Origin: a bacterium
GTDB lineage: Bacteria > Eisenbacteria > RBG-16-71-46 > CAIMUX01
Assembly (NCBI GenBank): GCA_030431975.1
Contig: JAUIHP010000037.1
Coordinates: 1 to 32,557 of the forward strand
Reading direction: 5' to 3'
Length of the DNA: 32,557 bases
This document shows, piece by piece, positions 6,193 through 31,916 of the stretch. The first letter of the stretch is position 1; every line of letters begins with the position of its first letter. Both the position numbers and the translations under genes were made by a program. The notes beneath the pieces are model-generated. The model did no database searches. It saw nothing but the letters and a program-made list of their open reading frames with translations, and was not told the origin of the DNA.

Positions 6193-6801
6193 ATGAAGTG
6201 GAAAGAAATCGACTGGGATACCGCCGAGTCGGCCCAGAGAGAAGCGGCAACCACCCTGCTGGCAGAGCTCGTGGCGGACGAAGGTTCAGACGCCCCAATG
6301 CAACCCGAAGAGTTGGCGACCGAGTTGGCGCAGGGTGCGAAGGTTCGCTTGTGGTTTGGGAAGAATTCTGCGCGACCGGGCGAACCGGATTCGGGAACAG
6401 ATGGTGCTGTACTCGACGGATTCGCCGTGCTGCGCCAGGACGGCACCGTCCGGACCGTGCTTCGCCAGGAGCATCGCGAGATGAGCATCTTCCTTCCGAT
6501 GCTTCAGTGGGCGGACGCCACGTGGTCCGAACGGGTTGGCGGCCCGCAACTCAACGAAGGCACGGCGCAGATCTCCGTCCTCGCTCAGGACGACGACATC
6601 TGCGTCCCCTACCTGCTTCTGCGTCTCGAGTTTTCCGGTGAACCGCAGGGCGCGGTGGCCAAGGGCTCGATCGTGCCGCCGGCCAGCGCGCCGGAAGGCT
6701 CAGGCACGCCACCGACCGGAACGCCAGCCGAAGACTCAAGCTCGCCGCCTCCCGGCTGGACTCGATTCCGCGGGGGCCGTGTCGACTTCCCGGTCGAATA
6801 G
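6193..6801 (+). CDS. Hypothetical acidic protein with Pro/Ser/Gly-rich tail
   Basis: A 202-residue protein without a family I recognise. It begins MKWKEIDWDTAESAQREA, is acidic through the first 130 residues with alternating hydrophobic strands (CVPYLLLRLEFSG) and has a low-complexity tail (about 155-188) rich in Pro, Ser, Thr and Gly. There is no signal peptide or membrane segment. The ATG follows GAGAGACG. Its last 66 bases overlap the end of the convergent membrane-protein gene, so the tail may be only loosely constrained. Co-directional with the reductase but 130 bases away. Confidence 0.65.
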   Translation: MKWKEIDWDTAESAQREAATTLLAELVADEGSDAPMQPEELATELAQGAKVRLWFGKNSARPGEPDSGTDGAVLDGFAVLRQDGTVRTVLRQEHREMSIFLPMLQWADATWSERVGGPQLNEGTAQISVLAQDDDICVPYLLLRLEFSGEPQGAVAKGSIVPPASAPEGSGTPPTGTPAEDSSSPPPGWTRFRGGRVDFPVE

Positions 6802-7914
6802 GGCAAAGAGCAGGGCCGCCGCCAAACCGACCGGAACCATGAACGTCAGAAATCGCCATCCGCTCATGAGCGCGGCGGCCGTTACCCCGGCAACTCCTTT
6901 GTGAAAGAGCAGAAACGCTCCCTCGGCTCCGCCGGTCGCACCCGGTACCGGAACCACGGTCATGATCGTGAAGACAACGCACTGAAGAAGGAAGAGCCGA
7001 AGCGGATCGACGTCGAGCCCCAGACCGATGGCGACGAACGTGACCACGGAGTACCGCGCCGACCATTGCAGGAAGGCCAACGGCAGGGTCAGCAGAAACC
7101 TGGACCGGCGTGGCCACAAGGAGCGCCGGGCGTCATGAAACTGATCGCGTAGATCGCACAGGCGGTGGCCAAGGGTCGGGCCGAAACGTCGCACCAGCCA
7201 CACGAATGCCCAAACGGACAACCCAATGACGATCAGGAGAACGACTCCGACCAACACGGTCCCGATCGCTTCACTGCTACCTCCTTCGGCGGTACTGCCT
7301 GCGCCAGGATTCGAACTGACTGTGCCGGTGATCTCTCGCACTTTGGCCGCCGTCGCAGCAACGCCTCCGGAAAGGCCATCCATCACACTCGACAACAAAG
7401 GCGCGATATCGGATCCGGGCGAAAGCCAAACGGCGATCGGAACGGCCAGCACAAAGAAGATCGCGTCTTCGCAGGAACCGAGAAGTGTCAGAAGCGCGGC
7501 GTCACCCGGCCGGAATCCTTCCCGGTAGAGAAACGCGAACTTTGCCGGCGCTCCCCCGACCGCAGTCGGGGTCACTGCAGCCAAGACCTCCGAACTGGTC
7601 ACGACTCTCAGAGACGAGCGCACTCCCAGCGGACGGCCCAACGCTCTCGTCCAGATCATGATGCGAAGACTTCGCGTGACGAACGGGACGAGAGCCGCCG
7701 CCAGTCCCAGCAGCAACCATGTCGGGGACACGCGACGGAGGGCATCCCATCCTTCGGCTCCGGCGGTGACATGAAGGATGCAGAGGTTCAGGAACGCAGC
7801 GATGGCGATGAGAATCGGCACGCGGCGCAACAAGCGCCGAGGTCGGTCGGCAGTACGACGAGCTTCCTGATCTAAACTCGAATCCTTCGCGCCCGAGGGA
7901 TCGTCGGGGTTCAC
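6736..7914 (-). CDS. LPG-synthase/AglD-type flippase-like membrane protein (UPF0104-like)
   Basis: A polytopic inner-membrane protein of about 392 residues belonging to the lysylphosphatidylglycerol-synthase transmembrane-region family, which also includes AglD- and YbhN-type proteins and lacks the aminoacyl-transferase domain of MprF. Evidence is the series of hydrophobic helices (PILIAIAAFLNLCILHV, LLLGLAAALVPFVTRSLRI), the family-typical SSEVLAAVTPTAVGGAPAKFAFLYREG, and VVPVPGATGGAEGAFLLF near the C-terminus. GTG at 7914 is chosen because it overlaps the upstream stop codon as GTGA; TTG at 7941 is an alternative. As the last gene after two glycosyltransferases it probably handles or translocates a lipid-linked product. 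Confidence 0.85.
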   Translation of the reverse strand: MNPDDPSGAKDSSLDQEARRTADRPRRLLRRVPILIAIAAFLNLCILHVTAGAEGWDALRRVSPTWLLLGLAAALVPFVTRSLRIMIWTRALGRPLGVRSSLRVVTSSEVLAAVTPTAVGGAPAKFAFLYREGFRPGDAALLTLLGSCEDAIFFVLAVPIAVWLSPGSDIAPLLSSVMDGLSGGVAATAAKVREITGTVSSNPGAGSTAEGGSSEAIGTVLVGVVLLIVIGLSVWAFVWLVRRFGPTLGHRLCDLRDQFHDARRSLWPRRSRFLLTLPLAFLQWSARYSVVTFVAIGLGLDVDPLRLFLLQCVVFTIMTVVPVPGATGGAEGAFLLFHKGVAGVTAAALMSGWRFLTFMVPVGLAAALLFALFDREVDTAPAESSPAGRRRA

Positions 7915-9521
7915 CGGGCGCCGGACTCCGAAGGATTCCAATCCTGGCGCAAGTAGGGCGAACCTGCGTTCTCGTCACGATCGGTTTGACGATCGGTGTC
8001 ACGGTCGGAGGAGTCGACAGGAGCCGACGCGGCCGGACAGTCCGCAGAAGATCGATCATCGGTCGGAGTCAGTCCCGTCAGGGAGAGGAGGGTACGAAAG
8101 GTTCGATTCCACCCAAAGCTCGTAACCACATGTTCCCGCGCCCGCAGGCCCATGGACGCACGATCGCCTTCGAGTACCTCCTCGATACTCTCGGCGAGGC
8201 TGACCGAAGACTCGGGATCGGCCAGGCTGCCCAACTCGCGTGGAACCCGGTCCACAAGAGCGCCCGCTCGGACGCCGGTGACCGGAAGCCCGCAGGCTTG
8301 GGCTTCGAGAACGGAAAGAGCAAACGTTTCGTGCGCACCGGCGGTCACGTAGACGTCCGCGGAAGCGAGGTGCTCCGCCAACTGCAGCTTGTCGGACTGA
8401 TAAGGCAGAACCGTCAACCCTGGTACCTGATCGGCAAGCGCCTCCAGTTCGTCTCTTTGCGGTCCCTCTCCCATGAGAATGAGATGCACGTTTCGACCGG
8501 CGCTGCCGGCACCCGCAGCTCGAGATCGAAGACGCTCGAAAGCGTCCACGATCATGAGAGGACGTTTCTCGGAATCGAGTCGGCCGGCATACATCAACAG
8601 GACGTCATCCGCGGACTCCAGGCCCAGATTCTGCCGCAGGGCGACGCTCCGCCGCGACGGATGGAAGATGTCCAAGTCGACCCCGAGCGGTACGTGATAG
8701 ACGGAGTGCACTCCCAGCCGGGCCAGCTTCTCACAGAATCGGAGTGAGCTGGCCATGACGAGATCGCACGGACCGTAGACCCGACGCGCATAACGGTTCG
8801 CCCCGTCGACCAATCGGCCGGCGAACCTCGCGCGCTTTCCGTCAGGACGTGCTTGATGAAGTCGCAGGCCCCTGTGCGCTGCGGTCGCTACGTAGGCTTG
8901 TGGAAAGTCCGTGTGGTAGTGGCCGACGATGAACGGAATCGGAGGCAGATCCGCAGCTTCCCCGGCACTCAGGCCGTTTCGTATTGCGAGCTTGCGCGCC
9001 GAATCGAAATCGCGCTGGGGATCGCGCGTCGGATCGAGCTTGCGCTCCCGCTCGCGCTCGCACTCGGCGGACTCTGATCCTTGGGGGCTCCGCTCACTGT
9101 GATACAACTCCATCCCCGCGCCACTCATCCGACGCGGGGCTTCCCGCATGGAGAGGTTTCGTTCTTTGCGGGTCAGGCCGTACTTCTTGAGAACGCTGCG
9201 GCGGTAGTTGAATGCCGCCCAAGGCATCAGGTACGGACTGCCGAACTCGATGACATGCGGCGCTTCCTTGCGCAGGATGTCGTGCAACTTGTCCATGCGC
9301 GTCGCGAAGCGGTACCCACCGGTCTTGGGAATCGTACCCGCCTGGATCCAGTACGTCCGAAGCGGGCCGTCGACGTCCAGTCGATCCACTTCGCCGGGCA
9401 CGATCAGGACATGCTCGTGATCGGTTTCCTGGGCCAGAAAGGCACGCTTCGCGTCGATGTACGTGCGGATTCCTCCGCTCGTCGGGCCATACGCCTGAAC
9501 GATGTCGCAGTAGACGCTCAC
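7911..9521 (-). CDS. Family 4 glycosyltransferase (GT-B fold) with charged insertion
   Basis: A 536-residue GT4-type glycosyltransferase. The N-terminal acceptor domain begins with a glycine-rich loop (AYGPTSGGIRTYIDAKRAFL) typical of GT4 enzymes. The C-terminal donor domain has LLMYAGRLDSEKRPLMIVDA, a phosphate-binding EGPQRDELEAL and the conserved HETFALSVLEAQACGLPVTG with the EX7E glutamates. Between the halves, about residues 125-185, is a highly charged low-complexity insertion including ERERERKLDPTRDPQRDFD, and the last 35 residues are Asp/Arg-rich (DSSDRDTDRQTDRDE). GTG at 9521 overlaps the previous gene's stop as GTGA, so the two are translationally coupled. The sugar donor and acceptor are unknown. 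Confidence 0.92.
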   Translation of the reverse strand: MSVYCDIVQAYGPTSGGIRTYIDAKRAFLAQETDHEHVLIVPGEVDRLDVDGPLRTYWIQAGTIPKTGGYRFATRMDKLHDILRKEAPHVIEFGSPYLMPWAAFNYRRSVLKKYGLTRKERNLSMREAPRRMSGAGMELYHSERSPQGSESAECERERERKLDPTRDPQRDFDSARKLAIRNGLSAGEAADLPPIPFIVGHYHTDFPQAYVATAAHRGLRLHQARPDGKRARFAGRLVDGANRYARRVYGPCDLVMASSLRFCEKLARLGVHSVYHVPLGVDLDIFHPSRRSVALRQNLGLESADDVLLMYAGRLDSEKRPLMIVDAFERLRSRAAGAGSAGRNVHLILMGEGPQRDELEALADQVPGLTVLPYQSDKLQLAEHLASADVYVTAGAHETFALSVLEAQACGLPVTGVRAGALVDRVPRELGSLADPESSVSLAESIEEVLEGDRASMGLRAREHVVTSFGWNRTFRTLLSLTGLTPTDDRSSADCPAASAPVDSSDRDTDRQTDRDENAGSPYLRQDWNPSESGAR

Positions 9522-12052
9522 GGTGTTACCTCGCTGGGCGCTCCTTCATCGGGAGAGAGGGTCACTCCTTCGACATACTTTGCGAGAACCGTTTCCCAAT
9601 CATGGTCCTTGAGGACTCTCTCGCGCGCAGCCTCCCGAATCTCCATGAAGGAATTCGGATCCGCAGCCAACTGATCCAGGATTCGGTTCAACGCCTTCGC
9701 CCAAGGCTCCACTTCCTGTTGCCGGACGATCCACCCCGTCTTCTCGTCGATGACCAACTCCTTGGGGCCACCAACATCCGAAACCACGGCCGGCAGACCG
9801 CAAGCCTGCGCTTCGAGCACGGCCATTCCAAAGGTATCGGTCAGGCTCGGAAAAACAAAGAGATCACTTCCGCTGTAGATGTTGGGCAGGGCCCGCAGGT
9901 CCTGGCGCCCGATGAGGAAGACGCCGGGGTGGTCCCTCTCCTCGAGTTCCTGCAGGATCGGCCCTGAACCCGTCAGGATCAGACTGGCGTCCGGATGACG
10001 CTTCCGCACCCGCTGGAAGGCCTCGACCAGAAAGTCGAGACGCTTCTCACGCGAGATGCGCCCCACGTAGAGCAATCGCGGACCCTCCGGGATGCCGAAG
10101 CGGTGCGATAGGTACTGCCGTCCCCGCGAACGCGGTTTGAAGAGCTGCGCGTCGATGCCGCGCTGAAAGACACGCATCTTCGTCGTGTCGTATCCGCGGC
10201 TGGCCAGAATGTTGACGTACTCCGAAGTCGGAACTGCGACCTCGTCGAAGAGCGAGTAGAAGAGCTGGATGAAGTCTTCCAATGCATGAAGGACCGTATC
10301 GTGCGGCACGATGTCCGCTGCCTGCTGCAGGAAGTCGGTGTGATAGATGCCCACCGACCGAACCCGCAGGAGGTGAGCGGCGAGCAAACCGAGAAGCCCG
10401 ACCGGCCCCGGCGTGGAAACGTAGATCTCGTCCGGCTGAAAGTCGACCAGCCGCTCCAGCGAGCGCAGGATCGAAGGAATGCGCATCGTGTAGGCCGAGT
10501 AGTAGGGGAGAACGAACTCTCCGACCGTGGGAAGGTTGGTGAAACTCTCGGGAAGGTCTTCCGCCGGAACATCGGAGCCGAAGGCCCCGACGATCTCGAT
10601 GCGAAGTCCGCGTTCGTGGGAGAGCTTCCCGATCTGACGCAGCGTCACGGAGGGACCGTTCAGGTCTTCCAGCGTGTCGGAGAACCAGAGGATCTTCTTT
10701 CCTTTCGAATCTCCGCGCGGCTGCTTTGCGCCACCCGACCTGTCTTCGGAGCCGTCCTCCGCCGCACCGCCGGGCTCGCTCGAGAACGAGCTGCGCATCT
10801 CGCGCAACATGTCCTGATCGCGATAGAGATTTCTCAGCGCGCCGAACACCGGGAGCAGAAGCACCATGTTACTGAGTGGGGTTTGCGATTCTTTCAGATA
10901 CCGAAGAACCCGCCCCTTCTCGACCGCAGGGACCATACCGTCAAGAAAGGAACGGATAATCTCGTCGATCAGGTCGGACAAACGCTCGAACGCGATGTCG
11001 ATACGCTTCGTCACGTCCGCACCGTCGACCTTCGCGCATTCGGTAGCCAACTCGACCGCGATCTCCGCCGCACGGTCCGAACGCAACCGGCTGGTCGCTG
11101 CCAACGTTTGCAGCTTGATCTTGTCGAGTAACGAGAGTCCTTCCGACTCGAAGATCCACTTTCCCAGCTGCCTCACGACAAGCGCGGTTGGATCGGTCGC
11201 TCCCAACGGATTCGAACCCGAAAGAGAGGTCAGGCCACGGATCTGGTCATATGCAAGTTTGTACGCGGAGAACGTCGCCGACCGGAAGTCCGAGTCGCGT
11301 CCTTCCGGCTCGACGTTTCCAGATTGGATCGCTTGCAGAAAGCTGTCCACGTCGTCCGCGGCCGCGACAGTACAGGTCGTTCCACCCATCAGATTGGCGT
11401 AGTCGTTTGACCCACCGGTAAACGATTTCTTCCAAGGACGCTCCCCGATCGGCTCGATTCCGTGGCGATCGCTGTACTCCTCGATCTTGGCCGGTGAAAG
11501 TTCTTTCAAGCTACGAACCAACGTGCTGTTGTGTACCCGCGCCTGGGACCCGTTGATCCCTTCGAAGACCTTGAAGAGAAGAGCCAGCTTCTCGATGTGA
11601 GCGGATGTCAGCCGCCCGTTGACGGAGCGAGTCGGATGAGAAACCACATGCGGAATGCGTCGCTTCTGCATATAAAGCACGAGCTCGTAGATGTCATGAC
11701 GAGCCCGCCCGATCTTGTGGAACTGTTTCTCGGTGATCCCATAGATCAAGACGGAAACTTTGCAGCCATCCTCCGGAAACACCGCGTCCACTTCGAGACC
11801 GATGAAGGCTTCCCTGGGATAGAGCTCGACCAGCGCCAGGGAGCCGTCGATGGTATGACGGTCGGTAATCGTAACCAGGTCCATGCCGCGGCGTTTGGCC
11901 GTTTGGTAGATCTCCCGCGCGGACGCCTGGGACGTCGGAGTGAAGAAACGACCGATACCGAACGAACTCGTATGAGACGAGTGGAGGGAATGGACGTGGA
12001 GGTCGGCCCGGAGCTTTCGAGGCGATCGATCCGCCTCCCTGTTTTCGGCCAT
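9518..12052 (-). CDS. PHP-domain phosphoesterase fused to GT4 glycosyltransferase
   Basis: An 844-residue two-enzyme fusion. The N-terminal third is a PHP metallo-phosphoesterase domain: DLHVHS (Asp17, His19, His21), TITDRHTIDG (Asp64, His66) and VVSHPTRS supply metal ligands. A helical linker of about 200 residues follows, with an acidic Ser/Gly-rich hinge (SSEPGGAAEDGSEDRSGG). The C-terminal part from about residue 455 (KILWFSDTLEDLNGPSVTLR) is a GT4 glycosyltransferase with LLYVGRISREKRLDFLVEAF and DTFGMAVLEAQACGLPAVVS. ATG at 12052 has GGGGGAG immediately upstream. It heads the three-gene GTGA-coupled operon. Fused PHP and GT4 activities suggest removal of a phosphate paired with sugar transfer in one pathway; that is inference. 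Confidence 0.93.
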   Translation of the reverse strand: MAENREADRSPRKLRADLHVHSLHSSHTSSFGIGRFFTPTSQASAREIYQTAKRRGMDLVTITDRHTIDGSLALVELYPREAFIGLEVDAVFPEDGCKVSVLIYGITEKQFHKIGRARHDIYELVLYMQKRRIPHVVSHPTRSVNGRLTSAHIEKLALLFKVFEGINGSQARVHNSTLVRSLKELSPAKIEEYSDRHGIEPIGERPWKKSFTGGSNDYANLMGGTTCTVAAADDVDSFLQAIQSGNVEPEGRDSDFRSATFSAYKLAYDQIRGLTSLSGSNPLGATDPTALVVRQLGKWIFESEGLSLLDKIKLQTLAATSRLRSDRAAEIAVELATECAKVDGADVTKRIDIAFERLSDLIDEIIRSFLDGMVPAVEKGRVLRYLKESQTPLSNMVLLLPVFGALRNLYRDQDMLREMRSSFSSEPGGAAEDGSEDRSGGAKQPRGDSKGKKILWFSDTLEDLNGPSVTLRQIGKLSHERGLRIEIVGAFGSDVPAEDLPESFTNLPTVGEFVLPYYSAYTMRIPSILRSLERLVDFQPDEIYVSTPGPVGLLGLLAAHLLRVRSVGIYHTDFLQQAADIVPHDTVLHALEDFIQLFYSLFDEVAVPTSEYVNILASRGYDTTKMRVFQRGIDAQLFKPRSRGRQYLSHRFGIPEGPRLLYVGRISREKRLDFLVEAFQRVRKRHPDASLILTGSGPILQELEERDHPGVFLIGRQDLRALPNIYSGSDLFVFPSLTDTFGMAVLEAQACGLPAVVSDVGGPKELVIDEKTGWIVRQQEVEPWAKALNRILDQLAADPNSFMEIREAARERVLKDHDWETVLAKYVEGVTLSPDEGAPSEVTP

Positions 12053-12189
12053 GTTCTCCCCCGTGGGTTTGCCAACGTCACCAGTTGCGAACCACTGCCT
12101 GTAAGGTACATCTTATGCAGCCTTGAGGGTCCCATTCGTGAGCGGTTTGCTAGCCCAGATCAGGAAAAGATCCCCAAAATGGAGTCCCC

Positions 12190-12534
12190 ATGCCTCTGCG
12201 TTGGACACGCGAACTGAAACAGCTGCTGGCGGACTGCGAGGTAACGCCGTTCAAGGCCTCGGGTCCCGGCGGCCAGCACCGGAACAAGGCGGAAACGGCT
12301 GTTCGGGTTCGGCACATTCCGACCGGTCTCGTCCGTATCGGGACCGAAAGCCGGTCGCAGTCCGCAAACAAGTTGCGGGCTCTGGCCCGAATCGCCGAAG
12401 AGCTGGAACGACGGAACCGAAAGAAGAAGGTGCGTAAGGCAACAAAGCCCACGCGCGCTTCCAGGGAAAAGCGGCTAGAGTCCAAGCGGCGTCGTTCGGA
12501 CGTGAAGCGAAATCGACGGGTGGTGGACTCATAG
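12190..12534 (+). CDS. Release-factor-like GGQ protein (ArfB/RFH-like ribosome rescue)
   Basis: A 114-residue protein with the class I release-factor catalytic domain only. KASGPGGQHRNKAETAVRV carries the GGQ motif (residues 27-29) that triggers peptidyl-tRNA hydrolysis in the ribosome. No codon-recognition domain is present. The C-terminus (about 75-114) is strongly basic (RRNRKKKVRKATKPTRASRE), as in ArfB/YaeJ, where the tail occupies the empty mRNA channel of stalled ribosomes. The GGQHRNK context is closer to stand-alone RF-like proteins than to ArfB proper (GGQNVNK). GGAG lies five bases before the ATG. Divergent from the glycosyltransferase operon. Confidence 0.9.
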   Translation: MPLRWTRELKQLLADCEVTPFKASGPGGQHRNKAETAVRVRHIPTGLVRIGTESRSQSANKLRALARIAEELERRNRKKKVRKATKPTRASREKRLESKRRRSDVKRNRRVVDS

Positions 12535-22147: not shown

Positions 22148-23695
22148 TCAGCCGCGCACCGCCAACGCCAGTCGACCCACTGCGATCAGGAGGCAGAGTG
22201 CCATCGCTGCAACAACCGTCGCCGTGAGGTCGGGAAAAAAGGACGCACCCGTGGAGAAACTGACCCCGACCAGCCTCTGGAAGCCGACGTAGGCGGCGTA
22301 CGCGCCGGCGGTCAGCCCGAGAGCCGCCAGGACATTGAGGACACGGTTCCGAAGGCGCATGGGCTGGTGGCCGGTTCGACGCAAGCTCTGTCCCGTCTTG
22401 AACAGCAACAATAGAAGTCCCAGCGGCGCCGCTACAGCTGACCAGATTGCCGCTTTCGCGCCGATGGGTGCCGCTGCAGGGACGGGCTCCCGACCCAACG
22501 CGGCATGGGTCACCGCTCGGGGAAGATCTCCGTGCGCCATTCCGGACATGTTGGTCAGTACCACCACGACAGCGTCTTCGGCAGGCACGATCGAAGCGAG
22601 TGCAAAGAATCCCGGAGTGAATCCCGAATGCTCGAACACCGGCATGTCACCGGAGCTGTTGGTGTACCAGCCCCATCCATAGCCCCAGTGTTCGAAGAAT
22701 GGGTTGAGCGCGAACAGCCTGTCCGCCCCTTCAGGCACGACGCGCGGATCGCGGGTGCGTACCGCCTCCAGGTATCGGGCCACGTCTTCGACGCTCGACG
22801 AGATACCACCCGCACCGATCAGACGCCGATCGGGTTCTTCACCGTCCGCGGGTCGCCAGGAAATCGGAATACCGAACCAGAGTCGGTATCCTGTGGCCAC
22901 TGTGATCGCATCGGATGGCGGAGTCTCGACGAAGCTGTTGCGCATACCGAGAGGCTCGAAGATGCGCGTTTCCAACACTCGTTCGAGCGGTCGACCGTCC
23001 AGCGCCTCGATCAGGTGCGACAGGATCACGTAGTTGGCGTTGGAGTACTGGAATGCGGATCCCGGCTCCGCGAACAGCTGGACGTCGACCAGATCGGCAA
23101 CGGCCGCCGCCGGATTCTTCCTCCCGGGCTCTCCCTTGCCGAAACGATTGCCCTCGAGAGTCGACAGCCCACTTCGATGGGTAACCAGATGGTCGATCGT
23201 GATGCGATCCGACATGGACTTGGACGCGGTACGAAAGTTCGGGAGATGTTTGACGGCCGGGTCATCCAGGCCCAACTTGTCCTCCGACGCCAGCTGCAGG
23301 ATGACCAGCGCGCAGAATGACTTCGTGATCGACCCGATCTGAAATGCCGTTTCGGGAGTGACAGGTTCTTCGTCCGGACCGGCAATGCCGAAGCCACCGG
23401 CGTACAGAGTCTGCCCATCGCGCAAAACAGCAACGGCCATACCGGGCGCACCCGCGTCTTCGCGCATTCGCGTCGCCGCCGCTTCGAATCCGGCCCGGTC
23501 GAAGCCCTCGCCACTTTGTTCCTGAAACGCGAGGGCGATTGCCGGCAGAAGCAGGAGCAAGCAGGCCGCCAATGCCTTTGGGGGCGGGGGCGGGGGCGGG
23601 GCCGCTGTTCTGGTTCTAGTCCTGGTTCTAGTCCTGGTTCTAGTCCTGGTCCTGGTCCTGGTCTTGGTCTCGGTCTCGGTCCTGGTATTGGTCAT
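22148..23695 (-). CDS. Serine hydrolase of the beta-lactamase / penicillin-binding class C family
   Basis: A hydrolase of about 515 residues. The catalytic SxxK motif is SITK (Ser122-Lys125), the second motif YSN is at 217-219 (FQYSNANYVILSHLIE) and the third, HSG, is in VFEHSGFTPGF. These define the class C beta-lactamase-like fold (esterases, DD-peptidases, peptide hydrolases). The C-terminal 110 residues add about three membrane helices (SAVAAPLGLLLLLFKTG; VLNVLAALGLTAGAYAAYVG; LTATVVAAMALCLLIAVG). The N-terminus is odd: Thr alternates with Arg, Glu or Lys over residues 2-30, then seven prolines and a hydrophobic signal core (ALAACLLLLLPAIALAF). ATG at 23695 is chosen because AGGA lies seven bases upstream. 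Substrate unknown. Confidence 0.9.
   Translation of the reverse strand: MTNTRTETETKTRTRTRTRTRTRTRTRTRTAAPPPPPPPKALAACLLLLLPAIALAFQEQSGEGFDRAGFEAAATRMREDAGAPGMAVAVLRDGQTLYAGGFGIAGPDEEPVTPETAFQIGSITKSFCALVILQLASEDKLGLDDPAVKHLPNFRTASKSMSDRITIDHLVTHRSGLSTLEGNRFGKGEPGRKNPAAAVADLVDVQLFAEPGSAFQYSNANYVILSHLIEALDGRPLERVLETRIFEPLGMRNSFVETPPSDAITVATGYRLWFGIPISWRPADGEEPDRRLIGAGGISSSVEDVARYLEAVRTRDPRVVPEGADRLFALNPFFEHWGYGWGWYTNSSGDMPVFEHSGFTPGFFALASIVPAEDAVVVVLTNMSGMAHGDLPRAVTHAALGREPVPAAAPIGAKAAIWSAVAAPLGLLLLLFKTGQSLRRTGHQPMRLRNRVLNVLAALGLTAGAYAAYVGFQRLVGVSFSTGASFFPDLTATVVAAMALCLLIAVGRLALAVRG
23611..23694. repeat. In-frame hexamer/dodecamer tandem repeat coding for Arg-Thr repeats
   Basis: Three copies of TGGTTCTAGTCC (23611-23646) are followed by eight TGGTCC-like hexamers up to 23694. 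On the minus strand these read as alternating Thr and Arg/Glu/Lys codons at the start of the serine hydrolase. A G-rich run encoding polyproline adjoins at 23578-23600. Because units are multiples of three, copy-number change would not shift the reading frame. Confidence 0.9.
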
Positions 23696-23817
23696 CGATG
23701 CATCCTGGAGGCACGTTCGCCGAAGCGAACCTGCCTCAGCGCATCGATAGTCTCTCACGGTTGGAGAGGGTCAGGGAGGGGGCTACTTTCCGAACCTCCG
23801 CTGCCGACCACGGGGTG

Positions 23818-25302
23818 TTACCTCACAAGAACGACTCGCGCGGTGGCCGTCTCGCCACCGGATCGACTGTTGATCCAGTAGGTACCCGCAGGAAGCGAAC
23901 GCCCACGGTCGTCCTGTCCGTCCCAACGGATGTCGAGTTGGCCGGACCCGGAACGGCGGCTTCCGAATCGGCGAACGACTCGTCCCATCGAATCAAAGAT
24001 CCGAGTGTGGGCGACACCTCCCGAAGGAAGGGAGAGTTCCGCGACCGTTTCGTACCGGAAGATCGTGGGTAGTGCCTTGAGTTCGAAGCTCGCTCTCGTC
24101 GCGCCGGCTTCCACGGAAGTCGAAGTATTGATCTCGAAGTTCTGCCTATAGCAGTCCTGCGGAAAGCCCTCTTCGTACCAGGCGACGGTCACGATGCCGT
24201 CCTGGTCGAGATCGACCGACGCACCTCGATGGCGACTGTCCCGGTCCGGATTTACGACGACCGGTGAACCTGTCGGACTCGTGTCCTGGAGGCTCTGAAT
24301 CCAGACGTCTCCATCCGACTCATCCGTTCGGTCCCAGGCGATGGCGCCGAGACCGGCCTCGTCGTGGGACATCGCAAGGCCGTAGACGTTCGTGACGGGA
24401 AGTTGAGCGATCGTGCTCTCACCGCCGAGCGGTGTTCCGGCAGCATCAAAGGCCCGGCAGAGAATCGTGCTCGTGCCATCCGAATTTCGCCGGCTCCATG
24501 CAAGATGGACGGCGCCCGTGGTTCCGGACGCCTCCGGTGCCTGATAGGAGTCCCCGATCGAATGGTTCGCCTGAAAGCCCGCGGAAAGCCACTGCCCGGT
24601 GTCGTCGACCATGCGGTATCCGACGTAAGGGCTGGAGGAGTTGTTCTTCCAGGTCACCACGCCGAAACCGTCCGGGCTCACTCCAATATCTACACTGGAA
24701 TCCATCCAATCTCCGGAGACGACCTGACGGCTGGTCAACGGGTTGCCGAATCGATCGAATGCCCTCATGAGTAGTTGGTCCGAGGTGGTGTTCTCCCAGA
24801 CGACGATGAAGTTGCCGCCTGGGAAGTGCGCGACCCGTGGTTGCTGGGCCTGCCCCAACCCCGCCTCGACCGAGAGCTCATTGGTGACCGGAGTTCCGTC
24901 CGGCTGGAAGATCCGGGCAAAGATCGAATCATCATCCGGGTCATCCCCGGCCCAAACGACGACCGTCCGCCCGGCCTGGGCCATGGAAACATCGGGGGAT
25001 CCCTGCCACCCCAGCGAGGTTTGGTTCACCTGGACCTCGGCGAGTGCCGTGCCGAAACGAGCAAAGACACCCGATCCGCTCCCGTCCTGGCCCCCTTGGC
25101 TTTCCCAGGCCGCCACGAAGAAATCTCCGTTGCCCGAATAGGCGAACTCACAGACCTGCTGCCGGTCGACGGTCGTGATGTTGATCTTGGTCTGCGCTCC
25201 GACCGGTACGAGCTGGGCTTCCGCCGGTGCTGCGATGACCACCGATCCGATGGCGAAAAGGGTACCGATCCAGATCTGGGTGACTCCCATCCACTTCAAC
25301 AT
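23818..25302 (-). CDS. Secreted repeat protein with FlgD-Ig-like C-terminal sorting domain
   Basis: A 494-residue exported protein. The signal peptide is MLKWMGVTQIWIGTLFAIGS followed by VVIAAPAEA. Residues about 40-390 contain repeated units of about 50-60 residues with a VVW or VAW strand (GNFIVVWENTTSD, FGVVTWKNNSSS, LGAIAWDRTDESDGDVWIQS) and FARFG/RAFDRFGNPL turns, suggesting a beta-propeller-like fold. The last 90 residues (VAHTRIFDSMGRVVRRFGSR, then WDGQDDRGRSLPAGTYWINS) form a FlgD-Ig-like domain of the kind used as a type-A C-terminal sorting signal in FCB bacteria. ATG at 25302 follows GGAGGAAG. No enzyme motif seen; a surface or secreted structural role is likely. Confidence 0.85.
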   Translation of the reverse strand: MLKWMGVTQIWIGTLFAIGSVVIAAPAEAQLVPVGAQTKINITTVDRQQVCEFAYSGNGDFFVAAWESQGGQDGSGSGVFARFGTALAEVQVNQTSLGWQGSPDVSMAQAGRTVVVWAGDDPDDDSIFARIFQPDGTPVTNELSVEAGLGQAQQPRVAHFPGGNFIVVWENTTSDQLLMRAFDRFGNPLTSRQVVSGDWMDSSVDIGVSPDGFGVVTWKNNSSSPYVGYRMVDDTGQWLSAGFQANHSIGDSYQAPEASGTTGAVHLAWSRRNSDGTSTILCRAFDAAGTPLGGESTIAQLPVTNVYGLAMSHDEAGLGAIAWDRTDESDGDVWIQSLQDTSPTGSPVVVNPDRDSRHRGASVDLDQDGIVTVAWYEEGFPQDCYRQNFEINTSTSVEAGATRASFELKALPTIFRYETVAELSLPSGGVAHTRIFDSMGRVVRRFGSRRSGSGQLDIRWDGQDDRGRSLPAGTYWINSRSGGETATARVVLVR

Positions 25303-28648: not shown

Positions 28649-31600
28649 TCAGGGGCCCGCCAGGATCGTAACCCTGGATGTCAACTCTCCCCCGACGGTG
28701 ATCACTCTACAGAAGTAGAGCCCACCCCGGACACGCACTCCTGAGTCATCACGCCCATCCCAACGCCACTCGAGCAGGCCCGGCTCCGCGACGGTCTCTC
28801 TACTCAGCGAGCGAATGCGTCGTCCCCGGACGTCGAAGATGGCTACGTCGATCGGTCCGGGTGTCGGGATCGCGAGTGCCACCCGCGTGTCGCCGTGGGA
28901 TGGATTGGGCCGAACCCCGAGCGTCCATGTCTCCGGAATCACGGACGTCTGATTGGCCGCGACCCTGGCCTCTTCTTTCGACAGAATTCGAGCGCGTCCG
29001 GATACGCCGGCACCGCAGCCTGAGATGGGTTCATTCCCCATCACTCCGCAGTCGTTGTTCTCGGCAAGACATGGCGAGGAAACGTCCAGGGAGTAGTCAC
29101 CGTTCCCCGCGTCGCAGAAGAGTGGATCCTCGGAGATGTTACCCGCCGTGCCCAGGAAGTCGGCGAGGCATTCGTGTTCCCAGTCTCCACCTTCGTTGCC
29201 GAAGATGTCCGTGCACTCAATGTTTGGCAGAAAGTGAGGATACAGGTACGAACTGCAGTCCAAACCGGCGCCACCGTTGCCGAACGCCAGGATGCACTGC
29301 TGCAGGTCCAACTGATACTCAGACCAGATGTGAGATCCGGCCGGCGAGGTGTTGTCGACGAACGTGCATGTCCGGACGACGCAGACGGCTTCGGTATCGA
29401 AGAGCGCCCCACCGCGGGCCGAAGCGGTATTGGATTGGAAGAGGGATGTCTCGATCGCGTTGGTCCCCCAGGACAAACCTCCGTGGTAGATCGCCCCGCC
29501 GTCCGTCGCTCCGTTTCCTACGAAAACGCACGCCTCTGCGCTGAAGCCGAAAGTGAGATCGTCGTAGACCGCCCCGCCGTCCGCATCAGACTGATTGCCG
29601 AGAAAGTGAGTGCGCCTCGCGGTTGCATCTCCATCCCCCTGCAGGTTGAGGGCACCGCCATTTGCCGTCGAATGGTTACCCTCGAACTCGCAGTCTTCGA
29701 CGAGAAGCAGATTCTCTCCCGATGCACGAACGGCGCCGTCCGGAGCGTTCTCACGAAATGCCGACTCATGGATCCGGGTGACGCCGTTGCCGAGATCCAA
29801 AGCTCTACGATTGTTTAGGAACTGGCAATCCCGGATCTCGAGGGATCCGGCCGAACGGGCGGAGGGAACACCGAAGTCGCCGCCGAACCATTGCCCTCCC
29901 AGGTCGTTCCCCTGGAAGCTGGACCCGAGAACCAAGTACTGGGCGTTCCACTCTCCGAACTGGAACCCCTGATCGTTGTCGATAAAGGAACAGTCCTCGA
30001 TCAGGCAGTCACCACGATCTGCAATGTTGTAGAGGCAAACTCCGGAGTTGTTCGTGAAGGTGGTTCGGAAGATGTGGAGTTCGTCGACGCCGCTATCTTC
30101 CGATTGACCGACCTCAGAGGTCTGAACGATCGTGTCTCCCGCGTTGTCCGTGATGATGCAATCACTCAGCGCGAACCGGCTCATCTGGTCCGCGTCGACA
30201 GCGACGCCCTCCGTCCCTTTGTTGTTCTCCAATCGAAGGCCACGAAGTGTCGGAGTCGCACCTCCCCGAATCCGGATCGCTCCCCCGTCACCGTTCGTCC
30301 AGCCGTTTCGAATGGTGATGTTTTGGACGACGGTGCTCTCGTCCTCTCCGCTAAGGAACCGCAGGCCCGACGCGGGCGCCGACTCCGAACCGTCGAGGTC
30401 GATCACGCAGGTGCTCGCGTCACCGGACTCCGACTGCAGGCGCACGGACTTACCTTGGAAATCGATGTCGCGGTTGCCCTCTCCGTGAAAGATTCCATCG
30501 CGGAGCAGGATCAGGCTTCCGTCGACGGCTGCATCGATCGCAGCCTGGATCGTCGCGTAGTCTTCGCCACTGTCCGGCGCAACGGTGATCGTTCGGGGGA
30601 CGGACGAGACGGGTGGTCCCTTGTACCAACCGGCCAACAGGAACGCCCGAGGTTCGGCAAACTGCGGTTCATAGCTGTACGCCGTGGCCCAGCCCTGCCG
30701 CTCCTGCCGCTGTGGATGGAACTCCACGTCCAGGTGGCTCGTGAACGGCTGACTCACGACGTCGAGCACACAGGAACGAACGAGACCCCAGGCTTCATCT
30801 TCAAGGCTCCACAACTCGAGCCGGCCAGAGTGTCGATCGAAAAGTCCGAGCGCCGCCTCGCCGGCGGAAGCGCCAAGCCCAACACGCGTGGACTCGAGCT
30901 GCAACGAAGTGACATCGTTCGTCCACGTTTGTCCGAAGTCGTCGCTCGTACGCACGAAGCCCGTCTCGTCATCGGAGTGGGCGATCCAAACAGACGGTGA
31001 ATACGGATCCGCCGCAATCGACAGCGACGAGAAGGGCTGATCATTGAGGAGTGTCGGCCCTCCGAAGGTGCCCGACGGGTCGGCCCGGTCCGGGATCTTT
31101 CTGTGAATCGTCAGCCGACGCCCAGACGCTCGGTCGTTGATGGACATGGCCAGATGCAGATAGTCGTCGTAGCCGAAGGCCAACGTCGGTGTGAAGAAGT
31201 CCGTCTCGCCGGGGACACTTTGGTCGACTGTGTAGGGCGATTCCCAACTGTTTCCCCGGTCGGTCGAGCGCGCGAAACGGAGGAAATCCGGGGAGCTGTG
31301 GCTCGTCGTCTTGATGTAGGAAAGGTACAGATAGAAGTTCCCGTGCAGTTCCGAGTCGGAGGCCAGATCGACCCAATCGATTCCGTAGCCGGAATCCAGG
31401 GTGTTCATGGTCCAGCCAGGAACGGCTCCGACCAGGTCCAATCTTGCAACCTTCAAGACATCTTCTGCGCTGCCCGACCCGGGCTCGACGTAGGCAACCA
31501 CAAGCCGGTCCCGGCCGGTTCTTGAGGCCAGGGCCGAGACGTAGCGTACGTACGGCTCGGTCGGGATCTCCGAGTGCTCTTCGAAACTCGCTCCACTGTC

Positions 31601-31798
31601 ATTCGAGACCGTGACGACGATCGCGGATGAACTCGGACAGAATCCGAAAATTCGGCCGTCACTTGCGATGGCGAATTCCGCGGGGGCGATGTCGTCGCCC
31701 GTACAGAGCATGTGAGTGGAGCCGGGTGTCGCAGATGCGGGCAGTGCAGACAGGGAGAGGCAGGCCGACAGGGCGAGGGCCACGAGCCAGGCAAACAT
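28649..31798 (-). CDS. Large secreted protein: BNR-like domain, right-handed beta-helix, FlgD-Ig tail
   Basis: A 1049-residue exported protein. The signal peptide is MFAWLVALALSACLSLSALP followed by ASATPG. Residues about 25-385 carry Asp-box-like repeats (SNDSGASFEE, STDRGNSWES, TSDDFGQTWT) as in sialidase/BNR propellers. From about 405 (APDSGEDYATIQAAIDAAVD) a parallel beta-helix begins, with repeats such as GGAIRIRGGATPTLRGLRLE and GGALFDTEAVCVVRTCTF. A cysteine-rich cap includes CTDIFGNEGGDWEHEC and DPLFCDAGNGDYSLDVSSPC. The end (RPNPSHGDTRVALAIPTPGP, then IAIFD-like DVAIFDVRGRRIRSLS and WRWDGRDDSGVRVRGGLYFC) is a FlgD-Ig sorting-type domain. ATG at 31798 follows AAGGA. Ligand or substrate unknown; a surface or secreted carbohydrate-binding or adhesive role is likely. 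Confidence 0.88.
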   Translation of the reverse strand: MFAWLVALALSACLSLSALPASATPGSTHMLCTGDDIAPAEFAIASDGRIFGFCPSSSAIVVTVSNDSGASFEEHSEIPTEPYVRYVSALASRTGRDRLVVAYVEPGSGSAEDVLKVARLDLVGAVPGWTMNTLDSGYGIDWVDLASDSELHGNFYLYLSYIKTTSHSSPDFLRFARSTDRGNSWESPYTVDQSVPGETDFFTPTLAFGYDDYLHLAMSINDRASGRRLTIHRKIPDRADPSGTFGGPTLLNDQPFSSLSIAADPYSPSVWIAHSDDETGFVRTSDDFGQTWTNDVTSLQLESTRVGLGASAGEAALGLFDRHSGRLELWSLEDEAWGLVRSCVLDVVSQPFTSHLDVEFHPQRQERQGWATAYSYEPQFAEPRAFLLAGWYKGPPVSSVPRTITVAPDSGEDYATIQAAIDAAVDGSLILLRDGIFHGEGNRDIDFQGKSVRLQSESGDASTCVIDLDGSESAPASGLRFLSGEDESTVVQNITIRNGWTNGDGGAIRIRGGATPTLRGLRLENNKGTEGVAVDADQMSRFALSDCIITDNAGDTIVQTSEVGQSEDSGVDELHIFRTTFTNNSGVCLYNIADRGDCLIEDCSFIDNDQGFQFGEWNAQYLVLGSSFQGNDLGGQWFGGDFGVPSARSAGSLEIRDCQFLNNRRALDLGNGVTRIHESAFRENAPDGAVRASGENLLLVEDCEFEGNHSTANGGALNLQGDGDATARRTHFLGNQSDADGGAVYDDLTFGFSAEACVFVGNGATDGGAIYHGGLSWGTNAIETSLFQSNTASARGGALFDTEAVCVVRTCTFVDNTSPAGSHIWSEYQLDLQQCILAFGNGGAGLDCSSYLYPHFLPNIECTDIFGNEGGDWEHECLADFLGTAGNISEDPLFCDAGNGDYSLDVSSPCLAENNDCGVMGNEPISGCGAGVSGRARILSKEEARVAANQTSVIPETWTLGVRPNPSHGDTRVALAIPTPGPIDVAIFDVRGRRIRSLSRETVAEPGLLEWRWDGRDDSGVRVRGGLYFCRVITVGGELTSRVTILAGP

Positions 31799-31916
31799 GA
31801 AGTCGTTCCTTACTGAGAGGGAGCTCAGGTGTGCTTGGAGTCTAGCATAGGTTCGGAAACCAATGCTTGGGTCGGACTGCGTCACCGTCCGGTTCCGCCG
31901 GTTCCCGAACTCTACG

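Follow-up and report, generated by a model that had tools for sequence, protein, structure and literature searches.

The window analysed here, the whole stretch of 32,557 nucleotides, contains a minus-strand operon of three genes, at 9518-12052, 7911-9521 and 6736-7914. Gene 1 (844 residues, ATG start) encodes a PHP-like N-terminus, a linker and a GT4 glycosyltransferase domain; gene 2 (536 residues) encodes a GpgS-like GT4; and gene 3 (392 residues) encodes a flippase-type membrane protein of the LPG_synthase_TM/TIGR00374 kind. Consecutive genes overlap by the four bases GTGA, at 9518-9521 between genes 1 and 2 and at 7911-7914 between genes 2 and 3 (both minus strand). A first-pass annotation had proposed these overlaps, together with start codons at 9521 and 7914, and both claims were borne out, as genes 2 and 3 start with GTG at these positions. 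The overlaps imply that the three genes may be translated together. Upstream, a divergent intergenic region of 137 bases (12053-12189) separates the start of the operon from a small ArfB-like RF-1-domain gene on the plus strand (12190-12534), while the 3' end of the operon is convergent with an ORF (6193-6801) that has no Pfam family. A promoter scan detected no sigma-70-like promoter, and Pho boxes were not enriched in the window (4 matches vs 10 expected). Elsewhere in the window, a large beta-helix protein (28649-31885) and a second protein (23818-25302, minus strand) both end in FlgD_ig/type IX-like sorting domains and are probably secreted or surface proteins; the gene at 22148-23758 (minus strand) encodes a serine hydrolase of the class C beta-lactamase/AmpH superfamily that scores far under any specific cut-off.

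The N-terminal part of gene 1 (residues 1-260; 11273-12052, minus strand) scored 13.8 bits against the Pfam PHP model, under the cut-off of 26.4, and a search of PDB sequences with the PHP profile gave nothing real (best E 0.84). Profile-profile alignment (hhalign) matched it to a PF02811-positive protein of the same genome over 230 columns with a probability of 99.7 and an E-value of 4e-25, which confirms the predicted PHP fold. Eight PHP columns are conserved in the family (H19, H21, H65, E87, H100, H139, D216 and H218, in window numbering and with the family residue), and from the motifs of PHP proteins we take these to be the metal ligands; H27 was considered as a ninth ligand column and dropped because it varies across the PHP-GT4 family. 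All eight ligands are kept in most relatives and in the genome's own PHP protein. The window copy retains four of them (H19, H21, E87 and H139), the others being changed (H65 to R, H100 to S, D216 to N and H218 to Y). Ligand loss is seen to varying degrees in other members of the family: N216 is the sole change in L028, the locus that carries the nearest relative of the trio, H65 alone is missing in L040, L041 and L067, and in L043 most of the metal site has gone too. With four of the eight ligands gone, the PHP half encoded in the window is probably non-functional as a metal phosphoesterase. As it still shares 36-45% identity with most relatives, it may have been retained as a structural domain. 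The earlier description of a phosphoesterase domain fused to a glycosyltransferase therefore holds as far as the fusion and the PHP fold are concerned and probably fails for a working phosphoesterase; the phosphoesterase label is probably right for most relatives and wrong for the window copy.

The GT-B GT4 domain of gene 1 (9563-10690, minus strand; about residues 455-830) matched Pfam PF00534 at 120-123 bits, and its donor-site motifs, GRISREK and D-x7-E, are both intact. Full-length relatives of gene 1 occur in many bacterial families, mostly at 35-42% identity; a profile search found PHP-GT4 relatives in 23 of the 386 sampled genomes (about 6%), and in 2 of 47 genomes from the window's own phylum, i.e. 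the distribution is patchy. A plasmid search for PHP-GT4 gave no match, and a scan of genome contigs gave a weak GT4 match and nothing else. No paper describing the family was found in the literature searched, subscription papers lying outside the search. In a quickly built GT4 tree, with support given by SH-aLRT and without bootstraps, the glycosyltransferase domains of PHP-GT4 formed one clade (SH-aLRT 99) apart from the GpgS-like clade.

The glycosyltransferase half has also decayed in places. In L042, L093 and L094 the GT4 has no C-terminal donor domain, and in L077 the GR...K motif is gone; L093, L094 and L077 each have one or two complete GT4 genes close to the PHP gene. We rejected a classification of the L093 and L094 genes as standalone PHP genes, since they resemble PHP-GT4 without its C-terminal donor domain. 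Loss on the PHP side (the window and L043) and loss on the glycosyltransferase side (L042, L093, L094 and L077) indicate that the two halves are separately losable, which makes their roles testable by complementation. It is quite doubtful that PHP-GT4 is a family of one-protein lipid converters, in which the PHP half would strip the phosphate head group from a phospholipid or lipid phosphate and the GT4 half would put a sugar in its place, one or the other half having since been lost in lineages such as that of the window. At four loci (L030, L031, L033 and L079) a Cys-rich, radical SAM-like gene, identified by eye, lies just downstream of PHP-GT4, and in three of the four it overlaps PHP-GT4 by one base.

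The second glycosyltransferase that had been proposed for the operon proved to be a GT4 protein: gene 2 matched PF00534 at 75 bits, and an E-x7-E donor-site motif can be read from its sequence. Its best NCBIfam match, by a wide margin, was NF053787 (N-acetylglucosaminyl phosphatidylglycerol synthase) at 258 bits, the next family scoring 80. We equated NF053787, NF053788 and NF053789, by their model names, with the products of the gpgSDF operon of Pseudomonas aeruginosa, in which GpgS puts GlcNAc on PG, the resulting lipid is deacetylated by GpgD, and GpgF is predicted to be a flippase (PMC12713373). Gene 2 fails the NF053787 equivalog cut-off of 480 bits, which was reached in none of 385 genomes; a GT4 that adjoins a GpgD-like gene in L044 scored 219 bits, i.e. 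less than gene 2. In the tree, gene 2 fell inside the GpgS clade (SH-aLRT 99), in a sub-clade (SH-aLRT 99) with L028, L092, L093, L094 and one Skermanella protein. This sub-clade is mostly linked to PHP-GT4, and no GpgD was seen near its members; among the GpgS-like loci outside it, L044, L046, L047, L090 and L091 have GpgD nearby and L095 does not. The Skermanella member lies on a plasmid, where its neighbours include trehalase and SurE genes but no annotated flippase or deacetylase, so membership of the clade does not by itself fix the substrate. Gene 2 also carries a polar insertion of about 88 residues (residues 110-197; 8931-9194, minus strand), charged and of low complexity; the L028 relative lacks it and has 4 residues in its place.

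Gene 3 scored above the cut-offs of both PF03706 (LPG_synthase_TM; 102 bits, cut-off 33.4) and TIGR00374 (63.4 bits, cut-off 43.2) and has six hydrophobic segments, in agreement with its earlier description as a polytopic LPG-synthase-type protein. Its match to the GpgF model NF053789 (GlcN_PG_flip) was weak, at 65 bits vs a cut-off of 320. TIGR00374 proteins have roles in other envelope pathways too.

The GpgD deacetylase (COG3233) appears to have no counterpart. In the whole window genome (G000) there was no match to PF10096 at an E-value of 0.01 or to NF053788 at 1e-5; as this genome is 97% complete, the absence of GpgD is likely rather than certain. GpgD was also not found in G006, the genome that contains L028. 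Its absence from both genomes and from beside the sub-clade of gene 2 means that a changed sugar or acceptor is possible. PHP-GT4 as a simple substitute for GpgD was rejected, because PHP-GT4 sits with GpgS-like and GpgD-like genes in L044/L045 and because G190 and G327 have PHP-GT4 at one site and, at another, a full operon of GpgS, GNAT, GpgD and flippase genes.

A check for a conserved neighbourhood elsewhere recovered the same trio, in the same order and with 4-base overlaps (ATGA, then GTGA), in G006, which belongs to the same order and a different family. GpgS-like and PHP-family genes are also adjacent in G083, G229, G091 and G333, and in the first three they are accompanied by GpgD or a flippase. 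In G083 and G229 (L044/L045) the order is PHP-GT4, GpgS-like, GpgD-like and then PstB. The run in G091 (L093) consists of PAP2, GT4, PHP with half a glycosyltransferase, GpgS-like, flippase and an acyltransferase whose domains, PF19576 and PF13444, are those of OlsF; that in G333 (L094) consists of PAP2, GT4, PHP with half a glycosyltransferase and GpgS-like, and then reaches the contig end. G129 (L077) has PHP-GT4, PAP2 and two GT4 genes, the first pair joined by GTGA, and in L029 a flippase gene is followed by PHP-GT4. At L090 and L091 the GpgS-like gene is separated from the GpgD-like one by a GNAT acetyltransferase gene (6684-7352 in L090, where Pfam confirms it, and 6991-7683 in L091, where it is identified by sequence similarity), which suggests one more lipid modification.

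Lipid genes recur in the neighbourhoods of the PHP gene. In three lineages a PAP2 phosphatase gene belongs to the same run of genes; OlsB/OlsF-type PF13444 genes are present in 5 of 28 PHP-GT4 genomes, and in four of these five (two of three lineages) they are no more than about 4 kb away from the PHP gene; and PstB lies within 10 kb of PHP-GT4 in two lineages out of about 20, a weak association (p about 0.01). The PHP family occurs in 7 of the 9 genomes with a GpgS-like match (E 1e-55) vs 24 of 349 overall (hypergeometric 1e-7; 385 genomes were searched for GpgS and 349 for PHP, relatives being counted apart). Counted by lineage, from a rough family count, the co-occurrence is 5 of 7 (about 3e-5). 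In most genomes with PHP-GT4 no GpgS-like gene lies close to it, which indicates that PHP-GT4 has a role independent of gene 2.

Taken with the gene order and overlaps, the family and clade memberships, the ligand loss, the non-detection of GpgD and the conserved and co-occurring neighbours make it fairly probable that the operon serves to synthesise and export a membrane glyco(phospho)lipid by means of two GT4s and a flippase, as a variant of the gpgSDF and hexSDF systems. What we infer about the activities, the acceptor and the sugars, and about the sequence of steps and the direction of transport, is as follows. Gene 2, as a GpgS-type GT4, would glycosylate a membrane lipid at the inner leaflet; this acceptor may be phosphatidylglycerol, by analogy with GpgS, or a glycosyl-diacylglycerol, by analogy with HexS. 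In gene 1, the GT4 half would either add a further sugar or make the preceding glycolipid, and gene 3 would flip the finished lipid to the outer leaflet. As for the PHP half, it would descend from a metal-dependent phosphoesterase and here probably be non-catalytic, with a structural or regulatory part to play. Against this reading, genes 2 and 3 are under their equivalog cut-offs, a member of the sub-clade has other neighbours in Skermanella, PHP-GT4 mostly occurs without a GpgS-like gene close by, TIGR00374 proteins act in other pathways, and the flippase role of GpgF is itself a prediction (PMC12713373). The earlier idea of a glycolipid module thus gains support from the two GT4s, the flippase-type protein and the conserved neighbourhood; that the module is self-contained is unproven, as no lipid-phosphate phosphatase or deacetylase is linked to it here, though relatives carry them.

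A true GlcNAc-PG pathway, in which gene 2 would have GpgS activity, gene 1 would extend the product and gene 3 would flip it, is possible if somewhat unlikely. Because GpgD is absent, no deacetylation would take place. Such a pathway would explain why NF053787 stands so far ahead of the other families for gene 2, which outscores even the L044 protein beside a GpgD-like gene. It is harder to reconcile with a score below the equivalog cut-off, and with the lack of GpgD in G000 and G006 and beside the sub-clade when most GpgS-like genes outside it adjoin GpgD.

We regard phospholipid-to-glycolipid remodelling as an unlikely origin of the module. PHP-GT4 would then have been, ancestrally, PlcP and Agt in one protein, the PHP part hydrolysing a phospholipid or lipid phosphate and the GT4 part glycosylating diacylglycerol; further GT4s and the flippase would finish the product, and the PHP step would here have been lost or be supplied from elsewhere. 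We know of no PHP protein that acts as a phospholipase, which counts against this proposal. The intact PHP ligands of most relatives agree with it, as do the pst, PAP2 and OlsB/OlsF-type genes (the last close by in two lineages), and neighbourhoods of plcP with glycosyltransferase genes, established for phosphorus-starved bacteria, offer a precedent (PMC4796936). The PHP half in the window is however degraded, the pst link is weak and the window shows fewer Pho-box matches than expected. For our preferred reading, synthesis and export of a glyco(phospho)lipid, the PAP2, OlsF-like and pst neighbours are suggestive only, in that they hint at diacylglycerol and phosphorus-free lipids of the kind made by plcP-agt remodelling (PMC4796936).

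Finally, the two GT4s might build a glycan on undecaprenyl phosphate for gene 3 to flip, as part of exopolysaccharide synthesis or protein glycosylation. GT4s and AglD/TIGR00374 proteins do occur in lipid-linked oligosaccharide pathways too, yet the window ORFs searched include no gene for an initiating phosphoglycosyltransferase, for Wzx/Wzy or for a ligase, and in relatives the adjoining genes are lipid genes (PAP2, OlsF-like and GpgD), so that we consider this very improbable.

The genes for GlcN-PG were reported only in 2025, and the operon in the window points to a deacetylase-free branch of such a pathway, tied to a widespread and unnamed two-domain protein, PHP-GT4. The module could account for undescribed glycolipids of several little-studied lineages. 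The first-pass annotation knew of no described system with this exact set of genes. For the exact trio, with PHP-GT4 and without GpgD, this still stands in the literature searched (again with subscription papers outside the search), but two of its three parts have near relatives in gpgSDF (PMC12713373). In gene 3 the MprF-type membrane domain resembles that of the MprF/LPG_synthase_TM flippases, although gene 3 lacks their aminoacyl transferase domain. PlcP is a calcineurin-like phosphoesterase. The plcP-agt system of lipid remodelling (PMC4796936) likewise places a phosphoesterase next to a lipid glycosyltransferase, but as separate genes and with another type of phosphoesterase, whereas the PHP half in the window is probably inactive. 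The hexSDF operon of Clostridioides difficile serves aminohexosyl-hexosyldiradylglycerol, and its authors propose that HexS adds N-acetylhexose to a glycolipid made by a first glycosyltransferase (PMC10128005). Its likeness to the window operon, taken here at the level of operon logic, lies in a lipid glycosyltransferase with a flippase, and in a glycolipid provided by another glycosyltransferase; HexS is annotated as a monogalactosyldiacylglycerol synthase, the deacetylase hexD is present and the operon includes no PHP protein. The gpgSDF operon, whose products GlcNAc-PG and GlcN-PG were demonstrated with mutants and by expression in E. coli (PMC12713373), differs in that the window genome has no GpgD hit, that a PHP-GT4 gene leads the window operon and that both shared proteins (genes 2 and 3) are under equivalog cut-offs, while in both systems a single operon combines the gene for a GpgS-clade GT4 with that for an AglD2/YbhN-type flippase.
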